In this document: in pieces, positions 38,073 to 49,869 of the stretch
Numbering within the stretch: position 1 is the first letter of the stretch
Layout: each line of letters begins with the position of its first letter
Source: Segnochrobactrum spirostomi
GTDB lineage: Bacteria > Pseudomonadota > Alphaproteobacteria > Rhizobiales > Segnochrobactraceae
NCBI RefSeq assembly: GCF_009600605.1
Contig: NZ_VWNA01000002.1
Span: forward strand, 124,001-188,000
DNA: 64,000 bases
Direction: 5' to 3'
Notes under the pieces: generated by a model
What the model was told of the DNA's origin: nothing
The model's database searches: none
The model's input: the letters and a program-made list of their open reading frames with translations, nothing else
Program-made: the position numbers and the translations under genes

Positions 38073-38378
38073 TCAGAGCGTGTCGAGGGGGATGTTGAGC
38101 TTGAGGGCGAGGTCGTCGTCGCTGAGGCCGAATTGTTTGCGCAGCTCCAGCATCTTCTGCTCGAGCCGCAGCAAGGCGAGGCCGAGGCGTTCGACCTCCT
38201 CTTCCGTCAGATTACCGCCCTCGACGCGGCGGATCGCCTGCTGCTCGACCACTTGGCGTAAGGTCTCGACCAGCATCAGGACGAGGCGGACGAGGCCCTG
38301 CTCGACGCGTTCGGGGTCGAGCGAGATCCGCCCGTCGAGGGCGTCCGTCAACAGGCTCGAGACGATCGGTCTGCTCAC
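38073..38378 (-). CDS. gvpK: Gas vesicle protein GvpK
   Basis: This 101-residue protein matches GvpK along its length: RISLDPERVEQGLVRLVLMLVETLRQVVEQQAIRRVEGG, followed by LTEEEVERLGLALLRLEQKMLELRKQFGL. GvpK is a conserved accessory protein needed for gas vesicle formation. The start is a GTG at 38378. As sequenced, the upstream gvpL frame runs 167 bases into gvpK; correcting one base there would give a GTGA overlap instead. It is the last gene of the cluster. Confidence 0.93.
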   Translation of the reverse strand: MSRPIVSSLLTDALDGRISLDPERVEQGLVRLVLMLVETLRQVVEQQAIRRVEGGNLTEEEVERLGLALLRLEQKMLELRKQFGLSDDDLALKLNIPLDTL

Positions 38379-39057
38379 AGCGGGGCCCCCAGAGGTTCGG
38401 GTCCGAGAAGGAATAAGGCGGCCAGGGCCCGGTGCAGCTCAGGCTGAGATCGGAACGGACCTGCCGGAACGCGGCGACGTCGGTGAGGAAGGCCGCGACA
38501 TCGGCGCGCCGGACCAGGAACGAGGCGCGCAAGTCCGGCTGGGCCGCCGAGCGCGGCCACAGAAAGCGGTCCACGGTGTGTTGAGCGAGCCGGTCGTGGG
38601 GAAAGGTCTCGCTCGACGCCGGCCAACTGAGCTGGCGGCTCGCGAGAGACTTGATGTAGGCCGCGCCGCGCCCCTCGCCGCGAATCTCGGTCAAGGCCGG
38701 CGGGGCCTCGCTGAAGCCGGCGATGCGCAGCGCGAACTCGACGCAACCGTCGATCCGTTCGAGCACCGCCTTGACCGCGTCCGCCTGCCGTTCGAGCACC
38801 CGGACGCAGGCCTCGCGATCCTCGACCAGCGTGCCGAAGCGGAGCGGCAGCACGGCGGCGGGTCCCATCAGCGCCTCCACCACCTCCTGATGCCGCAGCA
38901 CGTTGGCGGGCTCGGGCGCCACCGCCCCGATGTCGGTCTCGCTCGCTGCGCAGGCGAGCCCGGCCGCTTCGACGAAGAAGGGGCGCGCGCCGGCGATGCC
39001 GATCGGGAGGGGCTTGGTCGGCGGCGGTGCGGCGAGAACGACATAGAGGTACAGCAT
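38212..39057 (-). CDS. gvpL: GvpL/GvpF family protein, C-terminus probably frameshifted
   Basis: This GvpF/L-family protein starts MLYLYVVLAAPPPTKPLP, has the family patches VLPLRFGTLVEDREACVRVLE and LRASFLVRRADVAAF, and the usual terminal TGPWPPYSFSDPNL. After that the frame reads an Arg/Pro-rich, low-complexity tail of about 55 residues over gvpK. Adding one base to the C5 run (plus strand) at 38386-38390 would give an immediate stop at 38377-38375 overlapping the gvpK GTG. GvpF/L proteins interact with GvpA and nucleate assembly. One of four paralogues here. Confidence 0.88.
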   Translation of the reverse strand: MLYLYVVLAAPPPTKPLPIGIAGARPFFVEAAGLACAASETDIGAVAPEPANVLRHQEVVEALMGPAAVLPLRFGTLVEDREACVRVLERQADAVKAVLERIDGCVEFALRIAGFSEAPPALTEIRGEGRGAAYIKSLASRQLSWPASSETFPHDRLAQHTVDRFLWPRSAAQPDLRASFLVRRADVAAFLTDVAAFRQVRSDLSLSCTGPWPPYSFSDPNLWGPRCEQTDRLEPVDGRPRRADLARPRTRRAGPRPPRPDAGRDLTPSGRAAGDPPRRGR

Positions 39058-39066
39058 TGTGCGGGC

Positions 39067-39303
39067 TCATTCGGCCTTGATGCCGCGCTCCGGCGGCGGC
39101 GCGTTCGCGTGGTCCCGCATGCGCTGCATGGTGTCGGTCGAGGCCAGAATGAGCTTCACGCCGACATAGACCAGGTCGATGCCGGCGATCGAAAGGGTGG
39201 CCTCGCCCCAAATGACGAGCCCTTTGTGGAGGGCGCGATCGAGCAGGTCGGCAATGGCGATCTCGCCGCTTGTGCTCGGCACGATCCGATCAGGCCCCGA
39301 CAA
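39067..39303 (-). CDS. GvpA-family minor gas vesicle protein (GvpJ/GvpM-like)
   Basis: This protein of about 78 residues has the GvpA-family helix-strand core IAIADLLDRALHKGLVIWGEATLSIAGIDLVYVGVKLIL. GvpA proper has [12 protein letters not shown] in this position; the WGEATLSIAGIDLVYV version is characteristic of the minor GvpJ/M/S paralogues that act in nucleation or at the vesicle tip. The reading begins with TTG at 39303, overlapping the preceding gvpL-type gene; a GTG at 39282 is possible. Confidence 0.85.
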   Translation of the reverse strand: MSGPDRIVPSTSGEIAIADLLDRALHKGLVIWGEATLSIAGIDLVYVGVKLILASTDTMQRMRDHANAPPPERGIKAE

Positions 39304-40069
39304 GTCCGCCCCCCACGAAATTATACGGACCCCAGGGCCCGGTCAGCTCACAGCCGAGGCCGTCGCGCGCGCAGCGCTCCGTCATGTTCTCGATCGCGGC
39401 GTGCCAGCCGATCTCCTCGTCGGTTCCGACGAGGTAGGCCGCATTGAGCACCATGCGGCCGCGGCGGCGATGGATCGCCGGCGGCTGCGGCGGGTTGAGA
39501 ACGGCGTCGCGGGCGCGGCGCGCCAGCGCCTCGTGGACATCGGCGACGCATTCCGCCAGCCGCGTCTCGTCGGCCTGGCTTTTCGCCCGCGCCTCCTGCT
39601 TGCGGCGGAAGAAGGCGGCCCCGGCACCTGCGGAGAGAGACACGGTCGCCGCGTCTGCCTGCTCGGCCCGCTCCGGATCGAAGAAGAGTTTGACACCCCA
39701 TTCCCGCGCGGAGCGGCAGCGCGCGACGGCGGCGAGGAGACGATCCCCATGGTCGTCGAGCGCGGCGAAGAGCGCGGGCTCGCCGGAGAACAGGGTACAG
39801 AACTTCATCGGCAGCACAGTCGCAGCCTGGAGCAAGTCGGTCACGACCGCCTCGTGCGCGAGCACGCGGTCGCGCGTCCACTCCGCGTCGGACAGGCGGG
39901 CGGGCAGGGCCTCCGGGCCGAACTCGGAGGCCGGGACCTCGCTCGCGACCGCCGCGAGTGTGCCGTGGCGATAGCAGCGCGGCGGCGCGTCGGGCAGGAT
40001 CCCGATGCGGATGAGGCTCTCGGCCTGTCGCGGTTCGTAATCGGCGATGATCGCGTATGTATAGAGCAT
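39290..40069 (-). CDS. GvpL/GvpF family protein
   Basis: This 259-residue GvpF/L paralogue has MLYTYAIIADYEP at the start, TVLPMKFCTLFSGEPALFAALDDHGDRLLAAV in the N-terminal domain, and MVLNAAYLVGTDEEIGWHAAIE with GCELTGPWGPYNFVGGG at the end, all family hallmarks. It overlaps the following GvpA-like gene by 14 bases. Paralogues of this family bind GvpA and other accessory proteins during vesicle assembly. Confidence 0.92.
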   Translation of the reverse strand: MLYTYAIIADYEPRQAESLIRIGILPDAPPRCYRHGTLAAVASEVPASEFGPEALPARLSDAEWTRDRVLAHEAVVTDLLQAATVLPMKFCTLFSGEPALFAALDDHGDRLLAAVARCRSAREWGVKLFFDPERAEQADAATVSLSAGAGAAFFRRKQEARAKSQADETRLAECVADVHEALARRARDAVLNPPQPPAIHRRRGRMVLNAAYLVGTDEEIGWHAAIENMTERCARDGLGCELTGPWGPYNFVGGGLVGA

Positions 40070-40120
40070 GATCCCGCCCCTGAAGTCGTCGGCCGCCGTT
40101 CGCTGGAGCGCGGACGAGGG

Positions 40121-41107
40121 CTAGTCCCGCACCGCCTCCTGGCGCCGGATCGAGATCGGTTCGGCGTCCGCCAGCAGCGTCCGATAGGCGGCGGTGATCG
40201 CCACCATCCGGTCCGGACCGGCGGCCTCCACCACCTCGACGTCGCCGCGGCTCAGGGCGAGATCCTGATGCGCGCCGAGCGCGGCCCGCCGGTACGCCGT
40301 CTTGATCTCTGGATCGTCCTCGCCGACGCCGAGCAGCGCCCGCGCCGCGGCGATCTCGTGCCGCGCCGGCAGGTGAAGCTGGACCGAGGCGAAGTTGTAA
40401 GGGGCGAGCGGACCCACGAGACGGAAAGTCAGGCGGCCGTCGAACTCGCCGTCGAGCTCTTCGAGGACGGCATCGAGGGCGGTCTCGGCGCTCGGTTCGA
40501 GCAGGAGCGCGACATCCACGACCCCGGCCGGATCGGACGGTTGGGTCTCGATGATGTCCTCGGTGAGTTCTTCCAGACGCTCCACGACGCGCTGGCGAAT
40601 CCGCTTCCGCCGGACGGTGATCTCTTCGCCGAGGCGTGTCGCCACCGCGTCCAGGGCGTCGCCGGTGCCGGCGGCGGCGCGGTCGCGCAGAGCGGCCGGG
40701 AACGCGGCGACGACCTCCGAGACCACGGTCTCGACGGGCCACCGCACGGCGAGGTTCATTTCCTGCCGGGTGCCCAACATGTCGAAGGCGGCGTCGAGCG
40801 CCGGTGCGCCGCGGTGCAGCGCCTGTGCGAGGCGCATCTCGTCCTCCGCGAGGCTGCCGAGCGAAACCGGTAGGGCGCAGCCGTGGCGCCGGAGATGGTC
40901 CATCACCGTCTGGCCGGCCAGCAGCCACGGCAGGATCGCGCTGCGCTCGAGGCCGGCGAGCCCGCCCGGGGGGGCGTCGCCAGTGACGGCGGAATAGGCG
41001 TCGCCTTCGATCAGGCGGAGCGCGGTCGGAAGACCCGTGTCGCGCGGCAGATCCGCCCGCGAGAGCGTGCCCTTCGGCATCACGGCGAAGACGAGGAGCT
41101 CGGTCAT
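40121..41107 (-). CDS. GvpL/GvpF family protein with C-terminal J-like domain
   Basis: This 328-residue protein has a GvpF/L domain at residues 1-245, ending in the family hallmark LVGPLAPYNFASVQLHLP. A C-terminal segment at about 253-315 resembles a DnaJ domain: ARALLGVGEDDPEIKTAYRRAAL, then HQD at 280-282 where J domains have HPD, then AITAAYRTLLAD. The Pro-to-Gln change suggests loss of standard DnaK stimulation. Its ATG overlaps the AAA+ gene stop (ATGA), so the two proteins are made together. A CDC48-like unfoldase and a J-like partner suggest a chaperone role in assembly or recycling of GvpA. Confidence 0.85.
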   Translation of the reverse strand: MTELLVFAVMPKGTLSRADLPRDTGLPTALRLIEGDAYSAVTGDAPPGGLAGLERSAILPWLLAGQTVMDHLRRHGCALPVSLGSLAEDEMRLAQALHRGAPALDAAFDMLGTRQEMNLAVRWPVETVVSEVVAAFPAALRDRAAAGTGDALDAVATRLGEEITVRRKRIRQRVVERLEELTEDIIETQPSDPAGVVDVALLLEPSAETALDAVLEELDGEFDGRLTFRLVGPLAPYNFASVQLHLPARHEIAAARALLGVGEDDPEIKTAYRRAALGAHQDLALSRGDVEVVEAAGPDRMVAITAAYRTLLADAEPISIRRQEAVRD

Positions 41108-43257
41108 CCTGCCACATCCTCTCTTTGAACGTCGCGGCCGTGCGCGCTCCGGCGCATCGCGCGGACGGCGTCGTCGAAATGGCGCGGCTCGACCCTGAGC
41201 GTCGGTGCGGGCCCGTCGCCGGTTGCTTCGGCGACGATCTCTCGGATCGCGGCGAGGCCGGCGTGTCGGCACAAGGCTTCGAGGTCGGCCCCGACGAGGC
41301 CGGCGGTCGCCTCGGCGAGCGCTTCGAGATCGACCGTCTCGGCGAGGGGCATGCGGCGCGCATGGACGTCGAGAATGGCACGCCGCGTTTCGAGATCGGG
41401 CGCCCGGAACTCGACGAGGAGGTCGAACCGGCCCGGCCGCAAGAGCGCCGCATCGATCTGATCGAGGCGGTTGGTGGCGGCGAGCACGGTGACGCCGCGC
41501 AGATCTTCGATGCCGTCGATCTCGGTCAGGAACTGCGTGACGACGCGGTCGGTCATGGCATTGCCGAGGCCGCCACGGCTCGGCGTCAGGGTGTCGATCT
41601 CGTCGAAGAAGACGATGCAGGGGGCGGTCTGGCGCGCTTTGCGGAAGATTTCGCGCACGCCACGCTCGGATTCGCCGGCCCACATCGAGAGGAGCTGCGG
41701 GCCCTTCACTGCGATGAAGTTGGCGCCGCTCTCCCCGGCGAGGGCCTTGGCGAGCAGCGTCTTGCCGGTGCCGGGCGCGCCGTAGAAGAGAATGCCCTTG
41801 GGCGGGCTGATCCCCGCCGCGGCGAAGAGATCGCCGTGGCGGATCGGCCACTCCACGGCCTCGACGAGCATGCGCCGCACGTCGGTGAGGCCGCCCACGT
41901 CGCGCCATCTCTTATGCGAGACCTGGGTGACGATCTCGCGCAGCGCGCTTGGCTGGACGCTCGCCTGGGCTACGAGGAAATCGTCCGCGGTCACGGTGAG
42001 GGCCGCGAGCTTCTCCTCGGGAATGCGCCCGTTCTCGAAGTTCACGTCGGGGACGAGCCGGCGCAGCGCCGACATCGCCGCCTCGCGGCAGAGCGAAGCG
42101 AGATCGGCGCCGACAAAGCCGGGGGTCAGGAACGCCAGGCGGAACAGATCGACATCGGGGGCGAGCGGCATCCCACGGGTGTGGATCTCGAGTATCTCCC
42201 GGCGGCCGTCCTCGTCCGGCACGCCGACGAGGATTTCGCGGTCGAAGCGGCCGGGACGGCGCAGCGCGGGGTCGATCGCGTTCGGGATGTTGGTCGCCGC
42301 GATGACGATGACCTGCCCACGCGATTGCAGCCCGTCCATGAGTCCGAGAAGCTGGGCGACGACGCGCCGCTCCACCTGCCGATCGCCGCTCATTTCCTCG
42401 CGCTTCGGCGCGATGGCGTCGAGCTCGTCGATGAAGATGATCGACGGCGCCTGCTTCTGGGCCTCGTCGAAGATGCGGCGGAGCTGCGCCTCGCTCGCCC
42501 CGTACATCTTGTCGATGATCTCGGGGCCGTTGAGGTGGATGAAGTGGACGTTGGCTTCCTGGGCGACCGCGCGGGCGATCAACGTCTTGCCGGTGCCCGG
42601 CGGGCCGCAGAGCAGCACGCCCTTCGGCGGATCGATGCCGAGATGATGGAAGACTTCCGGATGCTTGAGCGGAAGCTCGATCATCTCGCGGATGCGGCGC
42701 ACCTCGTTGCGCAGGCCGCCGACGTCCTCGTAGGTGATCGCGCTGCTGCGCGCGGTGCCGTCGAGAAAGCCGACATGGGCGTCCGGACCCGCGGTCACGG
42801 GACCGGCCGGGTCGCAGGCCTCGACCATGAACTCGCGCATCTGACCGCCCGCGATGCCGATCCGGATGCGGTCGCCGACGACGAAGGGAATGCCGTCGAG
42901 ATGCCGCAGCAACGAGCGGGTATCCTGGGGCCGGCCGCCGGAGCCGACCTGGGAGAGGGTGAGCGAGCGGGCCCGGGCGAGCGTCGTGCGCCGGAGCGTC
43001 ACCGTCTCGTCGAGGCTCGCCCCCGCATTGAGGCGCAGCAGCCCGTCCATCTGGACGAGGCTCTGCCTGCGCATACCTGCATGGGCCGGCATCGCGCGGG
43101 CGACGGTCGTGCGCCGGCCGACGATGGAGACGGCGTCGCCGATCTCGAGATCGAGGCGCTTCATGTCCTCCGGGTCGAGCCTGATCAGGCCGCGACCGAC
43201 ATCGCGCGAGGGTGCTTCGCTGACGCGGAAGGCAAGACCGGTCCCATCATCCGACAT
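41104..43257 (-). CDS. CDC48/VAT-like double AAA+ ATPase
   Basis: This 717-residue protein has a CDC48-type N domain (about 1-165) followed by two AAA+ modules. D1 has Walker A GPPGTGKT (218-225) and Walker B IIFIDELDAI (273 on). D2 has GAPGTGKT (493-500) and IVFFDEIDTL (548 on). Both have arginine-finger regions (RRPGRFDR; RPGRFDLL). All catalytic motifs look intact. It lies between a gvpJ-like gene (11-base overlap) and the J-domain gvpL (ATGA overlap). It probably unfolds or remodels gas vesicle proteins; the role is inferred from position. Confidence 0.92.
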   Translation of the reverse strand: MSDDGTGLAFRVSEAPSRDVGRGLIRLDPEDMKRLDLEIGDAVSIVGRRTTVARAMPAHAGMRRQSLVQMDGLLRLNAGASLDETVTLRRTTLARARSLTLSQVGSGGRPQDTRSLLRHLDGIPFVVGDRIRIGIAGGQMREFMVEACDPAGPVTAGPDAHVGFLDGTARSSAITYEDVGGLRNEVRRIREMIELPLKHPEVFHHLGIDPPKGVLLCGPPGTGKTLIARAVAQEANVHFIHLNGPEIIDKMYGASEAQLRRIFDEAQKQAPSIIFIDELDAIAPKREEMSGDRQVERRVVAQLLGLMDGLQSRGQVIVIAATNIPNAIDPALRRPGRFDREILVGVPDEDGRREILEIHTRGMPLAPDVDLFRLAFLTPGFVGADLASLCREAAMSALRRLVPDVNFENGRIPEEKLAALTVTADDFLVAQASVQPSALREIVTQVSHKRWRDVGGLTDVRRMLVEAVEWPIRHGDLFAAAGISPPKGILFYGAPGTGKTLLAKALAGESGANFIAVKGPQLLSMWAGESERGVREIFRKARQTAPCIVFFDEIDTLTPSRGGLGNAMTDRVVTQFLTEIDGIEDLRGVTVLAATNRLDQIDAALLRPGRFDLLVEFRAPDLETRRAILDVHARRMPLAETVDLEALAEATAGLVGADLEALCRHAGLAAIREIVAEATGDGPAPTLRVEPRHFDDAVRAMRRSAHGRDVQREDVAG

Positions 43258-43570
43258 GGGCGATCTCCTGACTTGTCGTGGCGAGCGCGTGCTCCAGCTT
43301 GTCGAGCCGCTCCCGAAGCATCCGGTTCTCTTCCTGGAGCTCGCGGGCCTGGGCGTTGAGGTGCGGGTCGGCCTGCCACCAATTGATGCCCATCGCCATG
43401 GCGCGATCGACCGAGGCGACGACCAGACGAAGACGGATGTTGAGCAGATCGACTTCGACGAGCGATATCGAGATGTCGCCGGCGATGACGATGCCCTTGT
43501 CCAGCACACGCTCGAGAATGTCGGCAAGGCCGGCGGCTTGCAGAGAATGCTCCATACGCTGTTCGGCCAT
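43247..43570 (-). CDS. gvpJ: GvpA-family minor gas vesicle protein (GvpJ-like)
   Basis: This 107-residue protein has a GvpA-family core LADILERVLDKGIVIAGDISISLVEVDLLNIRLRLVVASVDRAMAMGINWW followed by a charged coiled coil of about 35 residues (LQEENRMLRERLDKLEHAL). The core variant IAGDISISL identifies a GvpJ-type minor component rather than the GvpA shell protein. AGAGGA precedes the ATG at 43570; a GTG three bases upstream is possible. It heads the distal part of the cluster, 221 bases after the end of gvpO. Confidence 0.87.
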   Translation of the reverse strand: MAEQRMEHSLQAAGLADILERVLDKGIVIAGDISISLVEVDLLNIRLRLVVASVDRAMAMGINWWQADPHLNAQARELQEENRMLRERLDKLEHALATTSQEIAHVG

Positions 43571-43788
43571 CACCCAGTCCTCTCATCGCCTCGAGCTGCA
43601 GCTTTCGGCGCAGTCGTCGTCAAAAAATGGAACGATCAGAAATTTAAGTATTCTCTGGTCGGCATGAACGTCTTCGAATTATTCGGAGGGGTCGGATCAC
43701 GCACGCACGACCCTGTCCCGCAAGCGAGCCGGCGGGCCCCAGCGACCGGCCCCGATCGCGTCGGACCCGGCCTCGGCGATCGATCCGC
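43571..43788 (-). promoter_or_regulatory. Gap inside the gas vesicle cluster, possible internal promoter
   Basis: This 218-base gap is distinctly A+T-rich at 43620-43690, unlike the surrounding coding sequence, and could hold a promoter for the distal genes from gvpJ to gvpK. No clear -35/-10 pair or hairpin with a T-run is identified. Confidence 0.35.
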
Positions 43789-44049
43789 TCAGGCCTCTTC
43801 CATCACCTGATCGCGCAGATAGCGCCGGACGCGGGCGTAGCCGACCACGTTGCCGTCCCGGTCGAGGGTGATGCGGTAGGCCGCGAGCAGGTCGGTCGAC
43901 GCCGGGATGCGCTTCAGCTCGAGCAGGTTGACGATGATCTCCCAGCCGTCCTCGGTGGCGTTGACCTCCGACACGCTGTCGGCGGTGAAGCCGGTCAGTT
44001 CGTGCAATTCGTTCTTGACCTTGCGGATCAGTTCCAGGGTCGACGGCAT
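43789..44049 (-). CDS. gvpO: Gas vesicle protein GvpO
   Basis: This 86-residue protein matches GvpO: LTGFTADSVSEVNATEDGWEIIVNLLELKRIPASTDLLAAYRITLDRDGNVVGYARVRRYLRD. GvpO is a required accessory or regulatory protein of gas vesicle formation. The ATG at 44049 is chosen since homology starts there and GAGGCGAG precedes it. It lies 163 bases after gvpG, a gap with no other gene. Confidence 0.9.
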   Translation of the reverse strand: MPSTLELIRKVKNELHELTGFTADSVSEVNATEDGWEIIVNLLELKRIPASTDLLAAYRITLDRDGNVVGYARVRRYLRDQVMEEA

Positions 44050-44212
44050 GGCTCGCCTCGTTTGTTGTCCGCCGTCAGGCGGGGATCGGGGGCGGCCGGC
44101 GCCGACGGTGTCGTCGGTGTCGGTCGGGTTCACGGCGCCGCGCGCTCGCGCCGCGCCGGGATTTGTGCCGCGGCTCGGCCGCGCGCCGGCCTCGCGGCCG
44201 GCGGCCTTCGCG

Positions 44213-44464
44213 TTATTGGCCGCTGCGCATGCGCTCGCGGGCGATTTTCAGCCGCCCGAGCAGAATTTCTTCTTCCGCCTCGTAGTCCGCTTCGCTGATC
44301 TCACCGGTTTCGAGCCGCTGTTCGAGGTCGGCGAGGCCCGCGCGGATGACGTTCTCGTCGTAGAGGGTGCGCTCGGCCTGGTCGGCGATGACCTTGGCGA
44401 GCCACAGAAGCCCCTTCAGCGGACCCGTTGCGGGCGCGAATGCGACGTCGGTGATGAGCCCCAT
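44213..44464 (-). CDS. gvpG: Gas vesicle protein GvpG
   Basis: This 83-residue protein matches GvpG: MGLITDVAFAPATGPLKGLLWLAKVIADQAERTLYDE, then EQRLETGEISEADYEAEEEILLGRLKIARER. GvpG is a small helical accessory protein, normally encoded beside gvpF as here. AGGAGG six bases before the ATG gives a strong start that overlaps the end of gvpF closely. Confidence 0.93.
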   Translation of the reverse strand: MGLITDVAFAPATGPLKGLLWLAKVIADQAERTLYDENVIRAGLADLEQRLETGEISEADYEAEEEILLGRLKIARERMRSGQ

Positions 44465-44473
44465 ATTCGCCTC

Positions 44474-45271
44474 CTACCAATGGATCTTGAGCGACACGAA
44501 ATTGTAGGGCGGGACAGGGCCGACATATTTGAAGGTCAGCCTGTTGCCCCATTCCGCATCCATGGCGCGGACGCACGCGTCGAGTTCCGGCTCGCGGTCG
44601 GCCTCGACGAGGAAGGCGCCGTTGAAGACCATGCGCTCGCCGATCGGCTTCGAAAGCTTGGCCGAGTGGACGAAGGGGCGGACCCGGTCCATCACCCGCT
44701 GCTCGTCCTCGACGCGCTTGCGTTCGAGGGCTTGGCCGATCTGCTCGCCGAGCCGCATCCGCTCGAAATGCGATTTCTCCGGCGACTTGCCGATGAGCGC
44801 GTCGCGGGCGCGGCGGATCGCCGGGTTCTCGTCGAGCACTTCCTCGAAGATGACGTCTTCGCGCCAGGATACCTTGAGGCCGAGTTCGACCCGGCCGCGC
44901 ATCATCCCGAGTTGGAGCATCAGTTCGTCGCGGCGCTCGATCAGCACCTTGTTGGTGATGGCTTCGATGTCCGCGGCGACGGATCCGAAGCAGACCGGCA
45001 ACACGGTGCATCCCGCCATGACCTCTTCGAGGACCTTGGTGTGCGCCATCATGTTGCGGCGGTTGCTGTCATATTCGATGCGCGGCGTGTCGCTCACCAC
45101 GGCCGCGAGCGGTCCGACCGAGAGTGTGTGCACGAGGTCGCCGCGACCGCCGATGCCGGCGGCCTCGAATTTCGTCGGCGCCGGTGCGCCGATGATGGCG
45201 TAGAGATATTTGCCCTCGGGTTCGTCCTGGGCGGCGCCTTGCGCAGCCGTCATCGCGTGCGAAGCGGTCAT
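44474..45271 (-). CDS. gvpF: Gas vesicle protein GvpF
   Basis: This 265-residue protein is the most canonical GvpF/L member in the cluster: YLYAIIGAPAPTKFEAAGIGG, AHTKVLEEVMAGCTVLPVCFGSVA, MRGRVELGLKVSW, MVFNGAFLVEADREPELDACVRAMDAEWGNRLTFKYVGPVPPYNFVSLKIHW. GvpF binds GvpA and is needed for early assembly. Its ATG overlaps the stop codon of the HExxH protein gene (ATGA), and gvpG follows after 9 bases. Confidence 0.94.
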   Translation of the reverse strand: MTASHAMTAAQGAAQDEPEGKYLYAIIGAPAPTKFEAAGIGGRGDLVHTLSVGPLAAVVSDTPRIEYDSNRRNMMAHTKVLEEVMAGCTVLPVCFGSVAADIEAITNKVLIERRDELMLQLGMMRGRVELGLKVSWREDVIFEEVLDENPAIRRARDALIGKSPEKSHFERMRLGEQIGQALERKRVEDEQRVMDRVRPFVHSAKLSKPIGERMVFNGAFLVEADREPELDACVRAMDAEWGNRLTFKYVGPVPPYNFVSLKIHW

Positions 45272-46281
45272 CGATCGTCTCCCTCGGTGCGCGGGCCGGA
45301 CACCAGCCGGAGCGTGAGCGGTGCGCCCGCGTCGGACAGGTGCGTCGACAGCGTGGCAAGAATGTCGGCGCACCAGCTCTCGACGGCCGCCGCCCCCCAG
45401 TTGCCGTCGAGCGCGACATAGGTGGCTTGAACCGTGCGGTAGAGCGGCAGCAGCGGCGCCGCCATGCCGGACAGGACGCGTCCAACCAGGCGGGCGTCGA
45501 GCTCGCCGAACAGGGTGCGGTGGCCGGTCGTCGCGAACGGCGCCACCTCGAGGGCGAACGGCAGGCCGATCTGCGCGTCGGCCAGGAGAAGGAGCGTCCC
45601 GGCATTCTGCGGCGGCAGGTTCCCCGCCGCGACGGCGGCGCGAACCCGGCGCTCGAGTTCGCCGCGCTGCGAGAGGTTCGCCGCCGCGCGGTCGAGGGTG
45701 ATGCGGTCGACGTGGGCGAGCTCGTCCGCGAAGCCGTTGGCGATGCAGAAGGCGTTCGCGAGGAGCTCGGACACCGCCCCGACCGAGAGGGTCTTGCCGA
45801 GCTGCACCGCGAGTGGCCGCAACGCCTCGGGCCCGTCGGCCTCGACGCCGAGGATGCGCGCGGCGGCCGTCGCCCGCGCCTCGGAAAGCGGATGGGCGTG
45901 CTCGTGGGCGAGCAGACCCTCGGTCGCGACGGCGTCGTCCCAGTAGCCTTCCGCCACCATCATCTGCCGATTGACGAAGATGAAGCACTCGACCGGGTGA
46001 CGCGGATCGTAGACGTTGACCATCGGGCGCTGGGGCAGGCGGAGCGCGGCCTCGTCCATCACTCCGCCCCGCTCACGCAGATGGCCGGCGAGCGGGGCGA
46101 GGTCGTCGAGGACGAACAGCGTGACCGTCTCGTGCGGCCACAATCCCCGATCGACCAGCTTGCGCACCACATTGCGCTCGGCACGCACCGCAGCCGAGAT
46201 ATCGACGGCGCAGTTCGTGACGACGCGGACCTTGACCGCGCCGACTTCGAAGGTGCTTGCTCCCGTCTCGACCTGCGTCAT
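45268..46281 (-). CDS. HExxH-containing zincin-like protein of unknown function in the gas vesicle cluster
   Basis: I do not recognise the family of this 337-residue protein. It has HEHAH at residues 126-130 (HExxH, within LLAHEHAHPLSEA). Then, about 42 residues on, SELLANAFCIANGF offers Glu172 in the E-x-x-A-N-x-F context seen as the third zinc ligand in several gluzincin-like families. There is no signal peptide, so it should be cytoplasmic. It overlaps gvpF by four bases and follows gvpH by two bases, so it is co-expressed with the assembly factors. Proteolysis of a Gvp protein is a guess. Confidence 0.75.
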   Translation of the reverse strand: MTQVETGASTFEVGAVKVRVVTNCAVDISAAVRAERNVVRKLVDRGLWPHETVTLFVLDDLAPLAGHLRERGGVMDEAALRLPQRPMVNVYDPRHPVECFIFVNRQMMVAEGYWDDAVATEGLLAHEHAHPLSEARATAAARILGVEADGPEALRPLAVQLGKTLSVGAVSELLANAFCIANGFADELAHVDRITLDRAAANLSQRGELERRVRAAVAAGNLPPQNAGTLLLLADAQIGLPFALEVAPFATTGHRTLFGELDARLVGRVLSGMAAPLLPLYRTVQATYVALDGNWGAAAVESWCADILATLSTHLSDAGAPLTLRLVSGPRTEGDDR

Positions 46282-46283
46282 GG

Positions 46284-46826
46284 TCAGATCTTCCGCAGCT
46301 TGACCTGGAGGATGCCGTTGCGGTGGCTGTGTTCGAGCGACGCGGCGTCCACGACCCCGGGGAGTTCGATGCGCTTGGCGTAGCGGTGGCGCCCCTTGGT
46401 TTCGAGCAGCAGCGCGCCGTCCTCGATCGTCAGCGCGATCTCTTCTTCCGAGACGCCGGGGAGTTCGGCGGTCACGACGAGGCCGTCCTCTTCGTCGTAG
46501 AGGTCGACGAGGGGTTCTCGGACATCGTCGACCACGGGGCCGCGCGGCGTCGGGCTGATGTTGCCGAACCGGCGCACCTGCGGCACCCGTCCGAGTCCGG
46601 TCTTGACGCTGAAGCCGTAGACGCCGCGGGCTTGGTCCCCGAGACCCTTCACCTTGAACTCGCCGCTCTTGTCGACTTGCTCCGCCTGCTCGACGAGGGA
46701 GCCGAGCATCTCGACGAGGCCGCCCAATCCGCGGAACATCGCACCGATATCGGCCATGGCTTCGGCCTTGCCGGGCTCCGCCGTGCCGGACGGCTTGCCG
46801 TCCTTCTTGTCGTCTGGGCCGGTCAT
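46284..46826 (-). CDS. gvpH: Gas vesicle protein GvpH, Hsp20-like
   Basis: This 180-residue protein has a C-terminal alpha-crystallin/Hsp20-like domain (about 110-180: PLVDLYDEEDGLVVTAELPGVSEEEIALTIEDGALLLETKGRHRYAKRIELP, ending NGILQVKLRKI). Its N-terminal region, GLGGLVEMLGSLVEQ with KVKGLGDQARGVYGFSVKTGLG, is specific to GvpH. GGAGG precedes the ATG at 46826. GvpH is a chaperone-like partner of Gvp assembly proteins. Direct repeats lie just upstream. Confidence 0.9.
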   Translation of the reverse strand: MTGPDDKKDGKPSGTAEPGKAEAMADIGAMFRGLGGLVEMLGSLVEQAEQVDKSGEFKVKGLGDQARGVYGFSVKTGLGRVPQVRRFGNISPTPRGPVVDDVREPLVDLYDEEDGLVVTAELPGVSEEEIALTIEDGALLLETKGRHRYAKRIELPGVVDAASLEHSHRNGILQVKLRKI

Positions 46827-46916
46827 GGACGCCTCCTGTTGGTCGTGCCGCGGGGGGACTCGACTCTCGTCGGACCTTGGGTCTTGCCGGACCATGCGTC
46901 TCGGCGGCTTGGTTCC

Positions 46917-46946
46917 CGAGAGACTTGATTCTCGAGAGACTTGGAT
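46917..46946. repeat. Direct repeat pair in the leader of gvpH
   Basis: CGAGAGACTTGATT (46917-46930) and CGAGAGACTTGGAT (46933-46946) repeat with a 16-base period. Degenerate further copies extend toward 46860. The repeats lie in the 195-base gap upstream of gvpH on the minus strand. Confidence 0.6.
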
Positions 46947-47021
46947 CTCGGGCGCTCTGGTCCCACCAACCGAAGCGCCCGATCTCCTGCTCACGTCGCC
47001 CGGCCGAGGGCCGGGCGGCGT

Positions 47022-47372
47022 TCAATATTCGATCAGCGCCGGGGCTGCGCTCGGCCGCCGATGGGCGACACGGCTGCTCACGTTGGTGCGCTGGGCACTG
47101 GTCGTCTTGGTCGCCGCCGCCGGCGTGCCGAGCAGCATCGCCTTGATGGTGTCGAGTTCGGCATCGACCGCGGCGAGCATGCGCTCCGCCTCGAGCCGGC
47201 GTGCGTTCCAGGCATCGAGCTCGCGCTGGATGCGCATCCGCTCGTTCTCGAGCCGGGCATAGCGGCTCACCGCCTGGGTGCGGTTCGCGGGCTTCGCGTT
47301 GACGAGGCGGGTCTGGAGCGTGGCGAGCGTGCGCAGGCCGCGCTTACCCTGGGTCTTCTGCTCGGTGGTCAC
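47022..47372 (-). CDS. Small coiled-coil protein of unknown function in the gas vesicle cluster
   Basis: This 116-residue protein is basic, with a central heptad-like helix (YARLENERMRIQRELDAWNARRLEAERMLAAVDAELDTIKAML) and a low-complexity C-terminus. I recognise no family. A GTG start at 47372 overlaps the gvpN stop codon (GTGA) and is preceded by GAGGGGG, which fixes the start. Tight coupling to gvpN suggests a small structural or scaffolding partner in vesicle assembly. Confidence 0.75.
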   Translation of the reverse strand: MTTEQKTQGKRGLRTLATLQTRLVNAKPANRTQAVSRYARLENERMRIQRELDAWNARRLEAERMLAAVDAELDTIKAMLLGTPAAATKTTSAQRTNVSSRVAHRRPSAAPALIEY

Positions 47373-48427
47373 GACCGATCCCCCTCGTTGCGGGCCTTCG
47401 GAGACCGCCGGGCGCGGGTCGGCGCGGCCGGGCAATGGGTCGCGATGAGGGCGAGCAGCACCTCGCGGCGCTGGTGGCGTTCCTCGCCTTCGATCCGAGC
47501 GCCGGTGAAGATCCGCGCTTCGAGCACGTCGAGGCAGAGCTGTATGAAGTGGGGGTCGTCTGCCGCGACGCGGTAGCCTTCCTGGGCCGAGACCCGGGCG
47601 ATCATCAGGCTCGTGCGCAGTGTCGGGGTCTGCTGATAGTCGCCGGAGGCGCGGAAGCTGCGGACGAGATCGATGATCCGGGCGGCGGCCGCCTGCGACA
47701 GGCCTGTGCGCGCCATGGTGACGGCGAGCTCCATGGCACGGTCGGGATAACCGACGTCGATGGTCGCGAGCCGGTCCGCGAGGGCATCCTGGCTCGAGTG
47801 GACGCCGGCATATTCCTGCGGGTTGCTTGTGAAGATCGCGCGGAAGTCCGGGTGAACGCGGATATAGGATTCTTCCTTGGACTGCGCCGGCAAGAAGAGA
47901 ATGCGCTCTTCGAGCACGCTCAGAAGAACATTGTGCGTCTCGGGCCGCGAGCGCGTGAATTCGTCATAGACGAGGGTGTACCCCTCGCGGCAGGCGGTGG
48001 TCAGGCGATGGTCGGTCCAGCGCTGGTTCGCCGTCTCTTCGAACTTCGTCACGTTGTGGATGAACTGATCGACGACTTTTCGATAATGATAGCCGCGCTG
48101 CGAGCCGACGAGGTCGGCCGTGCCGAGCTCGTTGTCGCCCGTCACCACGATCACGGGACGGCCGAGCTGGGCGGCGACATGGAGCGCAAGCGTCGTCTTG
48201 CCGGTGCCGGCGGGGCCGCGGAAATGCAGGGAATAGCCGGCCTTGAGGAAGCCGAGGCCGCGGCGGGTCAGCTCACGGACCTGCTCCGTCTCGACGAAAT
48301 CCGCTCGCGGCTTCGGCACCAGGGTCGTGGAACCGCGCCGTTCGTCGAGCGTCCAGCGCACCAGCGGCGCTTCTTCGTCTTCCGCGAGGTCCGCGGCACG
48401 CCGAGCATCGGCGGAGAGGAGAGACAT
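47369..48427 (-). CDS. gvpN: Gas vesicle protein GvpN, AAA+ ATPase
   Basis: This 352-residue MoxR/GvpN-type AAA+ protein has Walker A GPAGTGKTTLAL (71-82), the GvpN-specific TGDNELGTADLVGSQRGYHYRKVVDQFIHNVTK, and Walker B TLVYDEFTRSRPETHNVLLSVLEE. GvpN drives growth of the gas vesicle from small bicones to full cylinders. The family core ends before a basic tail (TRARRSPKARNEGDRS). The ATG at 48427 lies 155 bases after the gvpC-like gene. Confidence 0.95.
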   Translation of the reverse strand: MSLLSADARRAADLAEDEEAPLVRWTLDERRGSTTLVPKPRADFVETEQVRELTRRGLGFLKAGYSLHFRGPAGTGKTTLALHVAAQLGRPVIVVTGDNELGTADLVGSQRGYHYRKVVDQFIHNVTKFEETANQRWTDHRLTTACREGYTLVYDEFTRSRPETHNVLLSVLEERILFLPAQSKEESYIRVHPDFRAIFTSNPQEYAGVHSSQDALADRLATIDVGYPDRAMELAVTMARTGLSQAAAARIIDLVRSFRASGDYQQTPTLRTSLMIARVSAQEGYRVAADDPHFIQLCLDVLEARIFTGARIEGEERHQRREVLLALIATHCPAAPTRARRSPKARNEGDRS

Positions 48428-48582
48428 GTCGGCTCCACATTCGTTTGCCGGCGTGAGCGGCGCGGCCCGCGGCCGCCCGGTCGACCGATGGAGGGGGCGC
48501 CCGCGGCGCGACGGCGCCTCCGCGGGCTCTCTTGCGTTGGGGCCGAGGCGCCTGTTCGAGCGCCTCGGCCGCGGTGCGAAGC

Positions 48583-49323
48583 TCAGAACGAGCTCGGGAT
48601 GAAGTCGGTCTGCGGCTTCACGTCCTCGACCTTCGGCTCGTCGGTCTTGGCGCTCTTCGAAGCCTTCGTCTCCTTCACGGGCTCCGGCTTCACCACGTCG
48701 ACGGGCTGGGCGTCCTGGACGATCGGCGCGGCTTCCACCTTCTCCACGGCAGCCTTGGGCGCCGGCTTGGCGGTCGCGTCGGACTTGGTCTTTCCAGCGC
48801 TCTTCGCGGCGGCCGGCTTGGCATTGCGCTCGAACCACAGCACGGAGGCGGCCACCCGATCCTCGGACAGAGCGTCGAGGAAGGCGGCATGGCTGGCGCG
48901 CAGCGCGCCGACATCCTTGCGCAGCGTTGCCACCGCCTGGCCGCGGTCACGCTGATCGCCGAGCGCCTTCTGGCGACGGGTGGCGAAGGTGCCGCCGAGC
49001 CAATCCGCGGTGTTCGCCCGCAGGGCCTCGGCACCTGCTGCGAGGTCCGCGACGATCTGCTCGGCACGCTGCTGGCGCGCCTTCCGATAGCCGTCGATCT
49101 GCTGGGCGGCGGCGCCGAGGGTGATGGCCGCCGCGAGCTTGGTGGTGCGCACCGACTCGGCAAGGGCCTTCTTCTGGGCCGCTGCGGTGCGGTGCTGAGA
49201 CGCCCTTGCGTCCTTCAGAAAGCGCGTCGTCTCCTGGCGGATCGCGCCCAGGGAATGCGCACGCGCTTCCCGCCCGGCGGCGATGGCGTTGATGGTGTCG
49301 GTGATCTGCCCGGCGAGAGACAT
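48583..49323 (-). CDS. gvpC: GvpC-like outer gas vesicle protein candidate
   Basis: This 246-residue helical protein has degenerate repeats reminiscent of GvpC: IRQETTRFLKDARASQHRTAAAQKKAL, later LAAGAEALRANTADWLGGTFATRRQKAL, then LRKDVGALRASHAAFLDALSEDR, spaced roughly 30-40 residues. The C-terminal 80 residues are a Lys/Pro/Ala-rich low-complexity tail (KPEPVKETKASKSAKTDEPK) absent from classical GvpC. AGGAGATCACATC precedes the ATG. Its position directly after gvpA matches gvpC. GvpC strengthens the vesicle wall by binding outside the GvpA ribs. Confidence 0.75.
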   Translation of the reverse strand: MSLAGQITDTINAIAAGREARAHSLGAIRQETTRFLKDARASQHRTAAAQKKALAESVRTTKLAAAITLGAAAQQIDGYRKARQQRAEQIVADLAAGAEALRANTADWLGGTFATRRQKALGDQRDRGQAVATLRKDVGALRASHAAFLDALSEDRVAASVLWFERNAKPAAAKSAGKTKSDATAKPAPKAAVEKVEAAPIVQDAQPVDVVKPEPVKETKASKSAKTDEPKVEDVKPQTDFIPSSF

Positions 49324-49341
49324 GATGTGATCTCCTATGCC

Positions 49342-49394
49342 CACGAGGTCTGAGCCCGCGACGAGGTCTGTGCCCAGAGGTCCGGGCCCACGAG
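49342..49394. repeat. Degenerate direct repeats upstream of the gvpC-like gene
   Basis: CACGAGGTCTGAGCCCG and GACGAGGTCTGTGCCCA repeat with an 18-base period and a third, weaker copy follows (AGGTCCGGGCCCA, then CACGAG). They lie just upstream of the ribosome binding site of the gvpC-like gene on the minus strand. Confidence 0.6.
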
Positions 49395-49492
49395 TTCCGC
49401 TCGCCGCATCCGCGGCCCGAGCGTCGCGCGGCCACATGATCCGTGGCCGGCATCCGAAGCCGTCCGGCGGCGGTGAGACCGTCGCCTGACCG

Positions 49493-49547
49493 GGAAACGT
49501 TTCCGGCCGGCCGCCCGGTCCGGCCAGCCCGATGAAAGGCTGGCCGG
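49493..49547 (-). terminator. Hairpin between gvpA and gvpC, candidate attenuator
   Basis: CCGGCCAGCC (49520-49529) and GGCTGGCCGG (49538-49547) form a perfect 10-base stem with an 8-base loop; no T-run follows. Downstream on the minus strand, GGAAACGTTTCC (49493-49504) is a perfect 12-base palindrome. Such structures between gvpA and gvpC typically let most transcripts stop after gvpA so the shell protein is made in excess. Confidence 0.55.
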
Positions 49548-49626
49548 GGCGGGCAAGCTCCGATCCGATGGTGCGACGCGAGAGCCGAACGCACCGGATG
49601 GGAGCCGGCCGACGCCGAATGCACCC

Positions 49627-49646
49627 GCCGGTCTAAAAGAACCGGC
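49627..49646 (-). other. Stem-loop directly after gvpA
   Basis: GCCGGT and ACCGGC pair across an 8-base loop, 10 bases past the gvpA stop codon. No T-run follows, so message protection is more likely than termination. Confidence 0.4.
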
Positions 49647-49656
49647 CGATGAATCG

Positions 49657-49869
49657 TCAGGCCGCCTGAGCGCCCGCCGTGAGGCCGACGGCCTCGGCGT
49701 ACTTCAGGTAGGTATCGACGCCGGCGACGACGACGCGGGCTTCGATCGCGAGCAGCTCGATGCCGACGAGCGACACGCGAACCCAAGCATCCACAACCAC
49801 GCCCTTGTCGAGGATACGGTCCACGACTTCAGCGAGGCTGCTCGAAGCGTTGATCTTTTCAACGGCCAT
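49657..49869 (-). CDS. gvpA: Gas vesicle structural protein GvpA
   Basis: This 70-residue major shell protein is typical Gvp[55 protein letters not shown]. GvpA forms the ribbed wall of the gas vesicle. GGTGGAG five bases before the ATG at 49869 selects that start over an ATG five codons upstream. It is the first gene of the minus-strand cluster, has its own upstream control region, and is followed by two hairpins, as expected for the most abundant product. Confidence 0.96.

Follow-up and report, generated by a model that had tools for sequence, protein, structure and literature searches.

Genes and features at the locus

The window is the whole stretch of DNA that was analysed, 64,000 nucleotides from Segnochrobactrum spirostomi. 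It carries a gas vesicle (gvp) cluster, the genes for gas-filled organelles that let bacteria float, in which a gene for a protein with an HExxH motif is located between gvpH and gvpF1. The features referred to below are the following.

38073–49869, minus strand: gvp cluster A-C-N-V-H-(HExxH gene)-F1-G-O-S-AAA-F2-F3-J-F4-K
46284–46826, minus strand: gvpH, Hsp20-type (Pfam HSP20), ending 2 nt before the HExxH gene
45268–46281, minus strand: HExxH gene for a predicted gluzincin-like zinc metallopeptidase of 337 aa, a gvp-cluster accessory (from the ORF, its homologues and an AlphaFold2 model)
45892–45906, minus strand: HEHAH, residues 126–130, with H126 and H130 as putative zinc ligands and E127 as putative general base
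45880–45882, minus strand: Glu134, invariant, alternative candidate for the third ligand
45766–45768, minus strand: Glu172, putative third zinc ligand, within SELLANAFC on helix 167–181
45547–45582, minus strand: ADAQIGLPFALE, 12 residues invariant in the five full-length rows, in the C-terminal helical part
45439–45441, minus strand: Tyr281, invariant across the five full-length rows
44474–45271, minus strand: gvpF1 (GvpL_GvpF, Pfam PF06386), whose start overlaps the stop of the HExxH gene by 4 nt
41104–43257, minus strand: CDC48-type AAA ATPase, homologous to what the gvpZ slot encodes in a Serratia-type cluster

The HExxH ORF starts with ATG and comprises 337 codons plus a stop. Its stop and the gvpF1 start share ATGA, and gvpH ends just upstream of its ATG; hence, the gene seems to belong to a tightly packed operon. 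The first-pass annotation, made from the sequence alone, had mentioned overlaps with the neighbours. This is correct for gvpF1 and not for gvpH, which is separated from the ATG by 2 nt. The location between gvpH and a gvpF gene, also given there, is true of the window and of each confident homologue.

The same 16 genes are present in the same order in L002, L003, L004, and L005. The cluster L049 (genome G344) has the window gene order as well, but of its gvpN only a remnant is left, which lies in frame with gvpV. In this cluster, the HExxH gene, the AAA gene, and gvpF4 are each split across frames, with the second half of the HExxH gene distributed over three of them. The split genes and the gvpN remnant may result from an assembly error or from decay.

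Three side observations concern other genes of the cluster. The gvpF4 ORF of the window (38212–39057, minus strand) extends 64 residues beyond the PYSF motif, compared with 10 in L002–L005, and overlaps gvpK by 167 nt, which may be due to a lost stop, a frame slip, or a true extension. GvpV (47022–47375 of the window, and its homologues) ends with a hydrophobic residue, any residue, and Tyr after a variable stretch in eight of eight aligned clusters, the tail variants being LIEY, LLEY, PLDY, HLGY, and SLNY. ARAGORN called a tRNA-Ala(cgc) at 44113–44191 on the plus strand, antisense around the gvpG-gvpO gap; no tRNA was called in seven other gvp loci, and the call is likely a false positive.

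Relatives and conservation of the putative active site

HEHAH is the only HExxH found by pattern search in the 337 residues, with 0.015 such motifs expected from the composition of the protein alone. The ORF translation confirmed both elements read in the first pass, HEHAH at residues 126–130 and Glu172 in SELLANAFC. The most hydrophobic 19-residue stretch starts at residue 229 with a Kyte-Doolittle mean of 1.5, and inspection by eye revealed no signal peptide; hence, the protein is presumably cytosolic.

Peptide patterns matched 44 stretches in the genome_contigs collection, and four relatives (54–63% identical) were obtained in this way: L002 (a MAG assigned to Proteobacteria), L003 (Ancylobacter polymorphus), L004 (Aquabacter spiritensis), and L005 (Prosthecomicrobium pneumaticum). 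Whole-genome searches matched the own genome (G000) and G344 among 385 genomes of the class sample and only the own genome among the three of the family. The profile search of the phylum sample gave four rows in 398 genomes, namely G000, G344, G462 (with a protein identical to that of L003), and one weak row, in G716. In the family sample around G541, which we take to be Enterobacteriaceae, one of 372 genomes (G970) gave only a weak row. The rows of G716 (E 5.7e-4) and G970 (E 0.002) were dropped, as the fetched stretches contain no HExxH in any of the six frames. A plasmid tblastn search with the HExxH protein gave nothing significant, and 75 pattern matches in viral contigs included no relative.

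The alignment has six rows: the window protein, four other full-length proteins, and one N-terminal fragment from G344. The five relatives are 45–62% identical to the window protein.

H126, E127, H128, H130, E134, and E172: These residues are invariant in all six rows, that of the window included, and the longest run invariant throughout is LLAHEHAHPL. Loss of HExxH or Glu172 in homologues had been named in the first pass as an observation against a peptidase site; both are retained in every row. As 77 of 222 positions are invariant, finding H126, E127, H130, and E172 all among these has a p of about 0.014 (hypergeometric). Conservation of the motif by itself is, therefore, moderate evidence, suggestive and no proof.

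Tyr281: This invariant residue is a possible candidate for a transition-state residue.

LLAHEHAHPLSE: Across the five full-length rows, this invariant block is as long as ADAQIGLPFALE, and no other is longer.

Family assignment and predicted fold

No significant match to the HExxH protein was obtained in Pfam (best E 0.05) or PHROGs (best 0.049), and no match in NCBIfam or PADLOC; a sequence search of the PDB returned a single row at E 1.3. None of the searched libraries names the family, and no sequence profile of a peptidase family matched the protein significantly.

The AlphaFold2 model, built on six sequences, has a pLDDT of 87.9 and a pTM of 0.87. Five strands (7–13, 16–22, 52–58, 87–91, and 98–104) all precede the helix with HExxH (117–132). 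Glu172 is on a later helix (167–181), and the C-terminal part is mostly helical. Residues 1–222 modelled alone gave a pLDDT of 77.8, weaker than the whole protein.

Foldseek with the whole model gave nothing at E ≤ 0.001 in the PDB. The best match was the M61 aminopeptidase 7xyo (probability 0.99, E 5.7e-3) with a low TM-score of 0.29, followed by M1 enzymes, many unrelated helical proteins, and also zincin toxins; with the model of residues 1–222, collagenase H was listed. The BFVD structure search had no match at E ≤ 0.001. With VIA-align, 47 of the best 50 rows for the whole model were of M1 or M61 type, the others being two YbeY chains and one TFIID chain. The top two, both M1 aminopeptidases, aligned over 162–166 residues at Z 9.6 and an rmsd of 4.8–5.2. 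For residues 1–222, 46 of the best 50 rows were of M1 type and the other four were YbeY (Z 8.5) and selecase (Z 8.0); the top M1 core aligned over 118 residues at Z 9.3 and an rmsd of 2.8. Taken together, M1, M61, selecase, and YbeY account for 49 of the best 50 rows with the whole model and for all 50 with residues 1–222. A Z of about 9 barely exceeds the background of 7–8 quoted for VIA-align, yet the rows agree, which makes the predicted fold moderate evidence. The zincin core fold with HExxH on the active-site helix is thus present in the model at moderate Z, and the non-zincin fold that the first pass had named as a refutation was not seen: the predicted fold has zincin neighbours, with moderate scores. 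This prediction adds to the evidence from motif conservation.

The model also bears on the third zinc ligand. E172 precedes the end of the alignment by 18, 13, 16, and 17 residues in 5ab2, 6ryf, 4xmv, and 4z7i, respectively. The third ligands of ERAP2, ERAP1, PepN, and IRAP, at the residue numbers that we presume for them, precede it by 18, 12, 15, and 18 residues. The register is thus off by 0–1 in these four entries, whereas 2hpo deviates by 2 and 8ez2 by 4 (six of the 50 rows compared). This register at the range ends supports, indirectly, E172 over E134 as the predicted third ligand, although the invariant E134 could take its place. The HExxH site, with Glu172 as the candidate third ligand, would bind zinc.

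Despite the structural neighbours, placement in M1 or M61 failed. M1 enzymes have a GxMEN motif and HExxH-x18-E as hallmarks. Pattern searches of the window protein found neither G.MEN or G..EN nor HExxH-x18-E; instead, 41 residues separate H130 from E172, an unusual spacing. The x41 spacing and the missing GxMEN disfavour M1 membership, which was rejected after these motif tests and with no profile match. M61 membership was rejected as well: none of the six members matched the Pfam M61 profile up to E 10 (HMMER filters drop most matches above 0.1). A search for M61 in the own genome of the window gave no match, and a weak Peptidase_MA_2 row there (E 0.15) was set aside. We take the fold class to be a known one, and the family and its setting to be so far undescribed.

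Occurrence among gas vesicle clusters

Every confident relative is encoded among gvp genes, in the place between gvpH and gvpF1, which supports the earlier tie to gas vesicles. The reverse does not hold. Among 16 genomes or plasmids that each contain several gvp genes (L047 and L048 being from one genome; a Thiodictyon plasmid, L044, with a lone gvpA was left out), six carry the HExxH gene: the window, L002, L003, L004, L005, and L049. It is absent from the other 10 (L040, L041, L042, L043, L045, L046, L047 with L048, L050, L051, and L055), where L046, L047, and L048 run into the end of the stretch or contig and the plasmids cover five of 44 gvpA-bearing records. In the phylum sample, GvpA-family matches occur in six of 388 genomes, in five of them above the cut-off; three of these five carry the HExxH gene, and G562 and G578 are without it. 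Because of the 10 genomes or plasmids without it, the HExxH gene is a lineage-specific accessory, which rules out that its product serves vesicle assembly in general as a protease.

Two clusters without the gene, L040 and L045, have the same backbone. In L040, on a plasmid of Octadecabacter arcticus, gvpF1 directly follows gvpH and no AAA gene was found in the cluster. L045 (genome G1222, which we count as gammaproteobacterial because of the class of G541) has the AAA gene at the cluster end. The CDC48-type AAA gene is present without the HExxH gene in L041, L042, L045, L046, L048, and L055; hence, the ATPase is no strict partner of the HExxH protein. Comparing clusters with and without the gene among the matches listed, GvpA has no long clade-specific tail, and GvpA, F1, H, V, and C suggested no substrate.

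An orphan protein of 265 aa in L040 (16317–17111, plus strand) has a 43–45% identical counterpart in L045 (11778–12455, minus strand) and is encoded just before gvpN in both of these clusters. It has no Pfam match up to E 0.1, and tblastn found it neither in the window nor in other loci of at least 10 kb. A relationship of this orphan to the HExxH protein was ruled out (probability 0.2%).

Proposed function and alternatives

The interpretation made in the first pass is supported in part. In our best reading, the HExxH protein represents a family of gluzincin-like zinc peptidases that has so far not been described and serves gas vesicles specifically. The gene, its conservation, its location, and its predicted fold were obtained directly. 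A gluzincin-like zinc peptidase would be the most economical reading of the protein. We consider it probable that the protein is a zinc-dependent peptidase of the gluzincin type that acts as a gvp accessory and most likely cuts Gvp proteins. It would be a cytosolic enzyme with five strands, the HExxH helix, a later helix with Glu172, and then a helical domain. Its gene, apparently coupled to gvpF1 by translation within one operon, would be a lineage-specific accessory that goes with one type of gas vesicle cluster in Alphaproteobacteria, the class of Ancylobacter, Aquabacter, and Prosthecomicrobium.

Beyond the fold, we infer zinc binding, catalysis, substrate, and partners. Given the ATGA junction with gvpF1, the neighbouring GvpH, and the CDC48-type ATPase, the leading guess is that the substrate is a Gvp protein, with a role for the cleavage in assembly or quality control. 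While vesicles are assembled, the peptidase would most likely cut at least one Gvp protein, by limited trimming or by removing misassembled subunits that the Hsp20-like GvpH or the CDC48-type ATPase pass on. Tentatively, the operon may even have its own machine for quality control or maturation, with GvpH as the holder, the CDC48-type ATPase as the unfoldase, and the gluzincin as the dedicated peptidase.

A zincin-fold scaffold or chaperone in vesicle assembly, in which any bound zinc would be structural and peptidase activity missing, is unlikely. The neighbouring gvp genes agree with such a role, as do the 12 invariant residues of ADAQIGLPFALE, which are in the helical C-terminal part away from HExxH. 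However, the residues that catalysis would require are kept in six of six rows, and a scaffold could do without them. Slightly less likely still is an active peptidase of a broader role such as peptide recycling, whose gene merely rides in the gvp operon. The closest folds, aminopeptidases acting on peptides, speak for this role, but neither the genome samples nor the peptide-pattern scan yielded a homologue outside gvp clusters.

Another metal hydrolase such as a YbeY-like ribonuclease is improbable, although YbeY chains align at Z 8.6 (1xm5, whole model, rmsd 3.4 over 133 residues) and at the Z of 8.5 given above. The YbeY motif is H3xH5xH. It is absent from the window protein, which led to the rejection of YbeY membership, and the candidates for the third ligand are Glu.

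The remaining reading equates the HExxH protein with GvpZ as named in Serratia (the gene between gvpH and gvpF2). It can hardly be maintained, as the gvpZ slot of a cluster with the matching order codes for a different protein. GvpZ was initially suspected because of the published position of its gene next to gvpH: the Serratia order, as far as given in these sources, is gvrA-gvpH-gvpZ-gvpF2-gvpF3 (PMC4982088, PMC9501494). The ORFs of genome G793, from this gene order probably the Serratia strain, fit all 19 genes of the published order, several by position alone. Its gvpZ slot encodes a 720-aa CDC48-type AAA ATPase (CDC48_N and two AAA stretches) that is homologous to the ATPase at 41104–43257 of the window (E 5e-233), and the profile of the HExxH family has no match at E ≤ 0.01 in this genome, one of 372. 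As the slot holds an AAA ATPase and the window has a copy of that as well, the HExxH gene is separate from gvpZ, and identity by position was rejected on this enterobacterial cluster. The tempting equation of the two proteins is thereby corrected. As a side observation, the GvpW slot of the Serratia-type cluster L055 (12151–14064, minus strand) encodes an ArsA-type ATPase (Pfam ArsA_ATPase, 9.5e-108).

Literature and significance

In the parts of the literature available to us, the function of GvpZ is listed as unknown (PMC9501494, PMC5601083, PMC6617781), and a GvpZ is listed for Polaromonas (PMC11267810). According to another report, deletion of gvpZ is tolerated in the native host, and the ultrasound signal is reduced or abolished in E. 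coli (PMC10344784). In Streptomyces, the name gvpZ has been given to SCO6504 and SCO0654. The sections seen of the Serratia and GvpZ papers contain no Gvp letter for the HExxH protein. The open-licence literature searched, mostly in the form of listings, names no peptidase as a component of a gas vesicle cluster; the protease mentions in the portions seen of PMC4606965 and PMC3403918 concern unrelated proteins (FtsH; site-2 proteases and HtpX).

A peptidase dedicated to vesicles would show that there are bacteria which process vesicle proteins or turn them over. Vesicle assembly would then be under a new kind of control, with a bearing on how vesicles get their shape and are taken apart, and engineers of acoustic reporters would gain a cluster part to add or remove. 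If the machine of GvpH, unfoldase, and peptidase exists, it would select the Gvp proteins that are admitted to the growing vesicle or taken out of it.

Comparison with known systems

GvpZ of Serratia sp. ATCC 39006: The likeness is that the gene adjoins gvpH in the published order, as far as seen in PMC4982088 and PMC9501494. In contrast to the HExxH protein, the slot of a genome with that order encodes a CDC48-type AAA ATPase.

M61 aminopeptidase: 7xyo is the top Foldseek match (probability 0.99), and 4fgm is similar. However, the HExxH protein is shorter than the M61 chains of 522–587 residues and has no Pfam M61 match.

Selecase minigluzincin: The entries 4qhi and 4qhj share the small core with the HExxH protein (Z 8.0 over 107–108 residues). 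However, selecase has 108 aa, and no sequence relation between the two was found. To our knowledge, selecase has no link to gas vesicles.

M1 aminopeptidase: The catalytic domain of M1 (clan MA, gluzincin) is similar in its predicted topology and HExxH helix and provides the best structural neighbours. In contrast to M1, the HExxH protein has no GxMEN, has x41 in place of x18, and is a single chain of 337 aa encoded by a gene of the gvp cluster.
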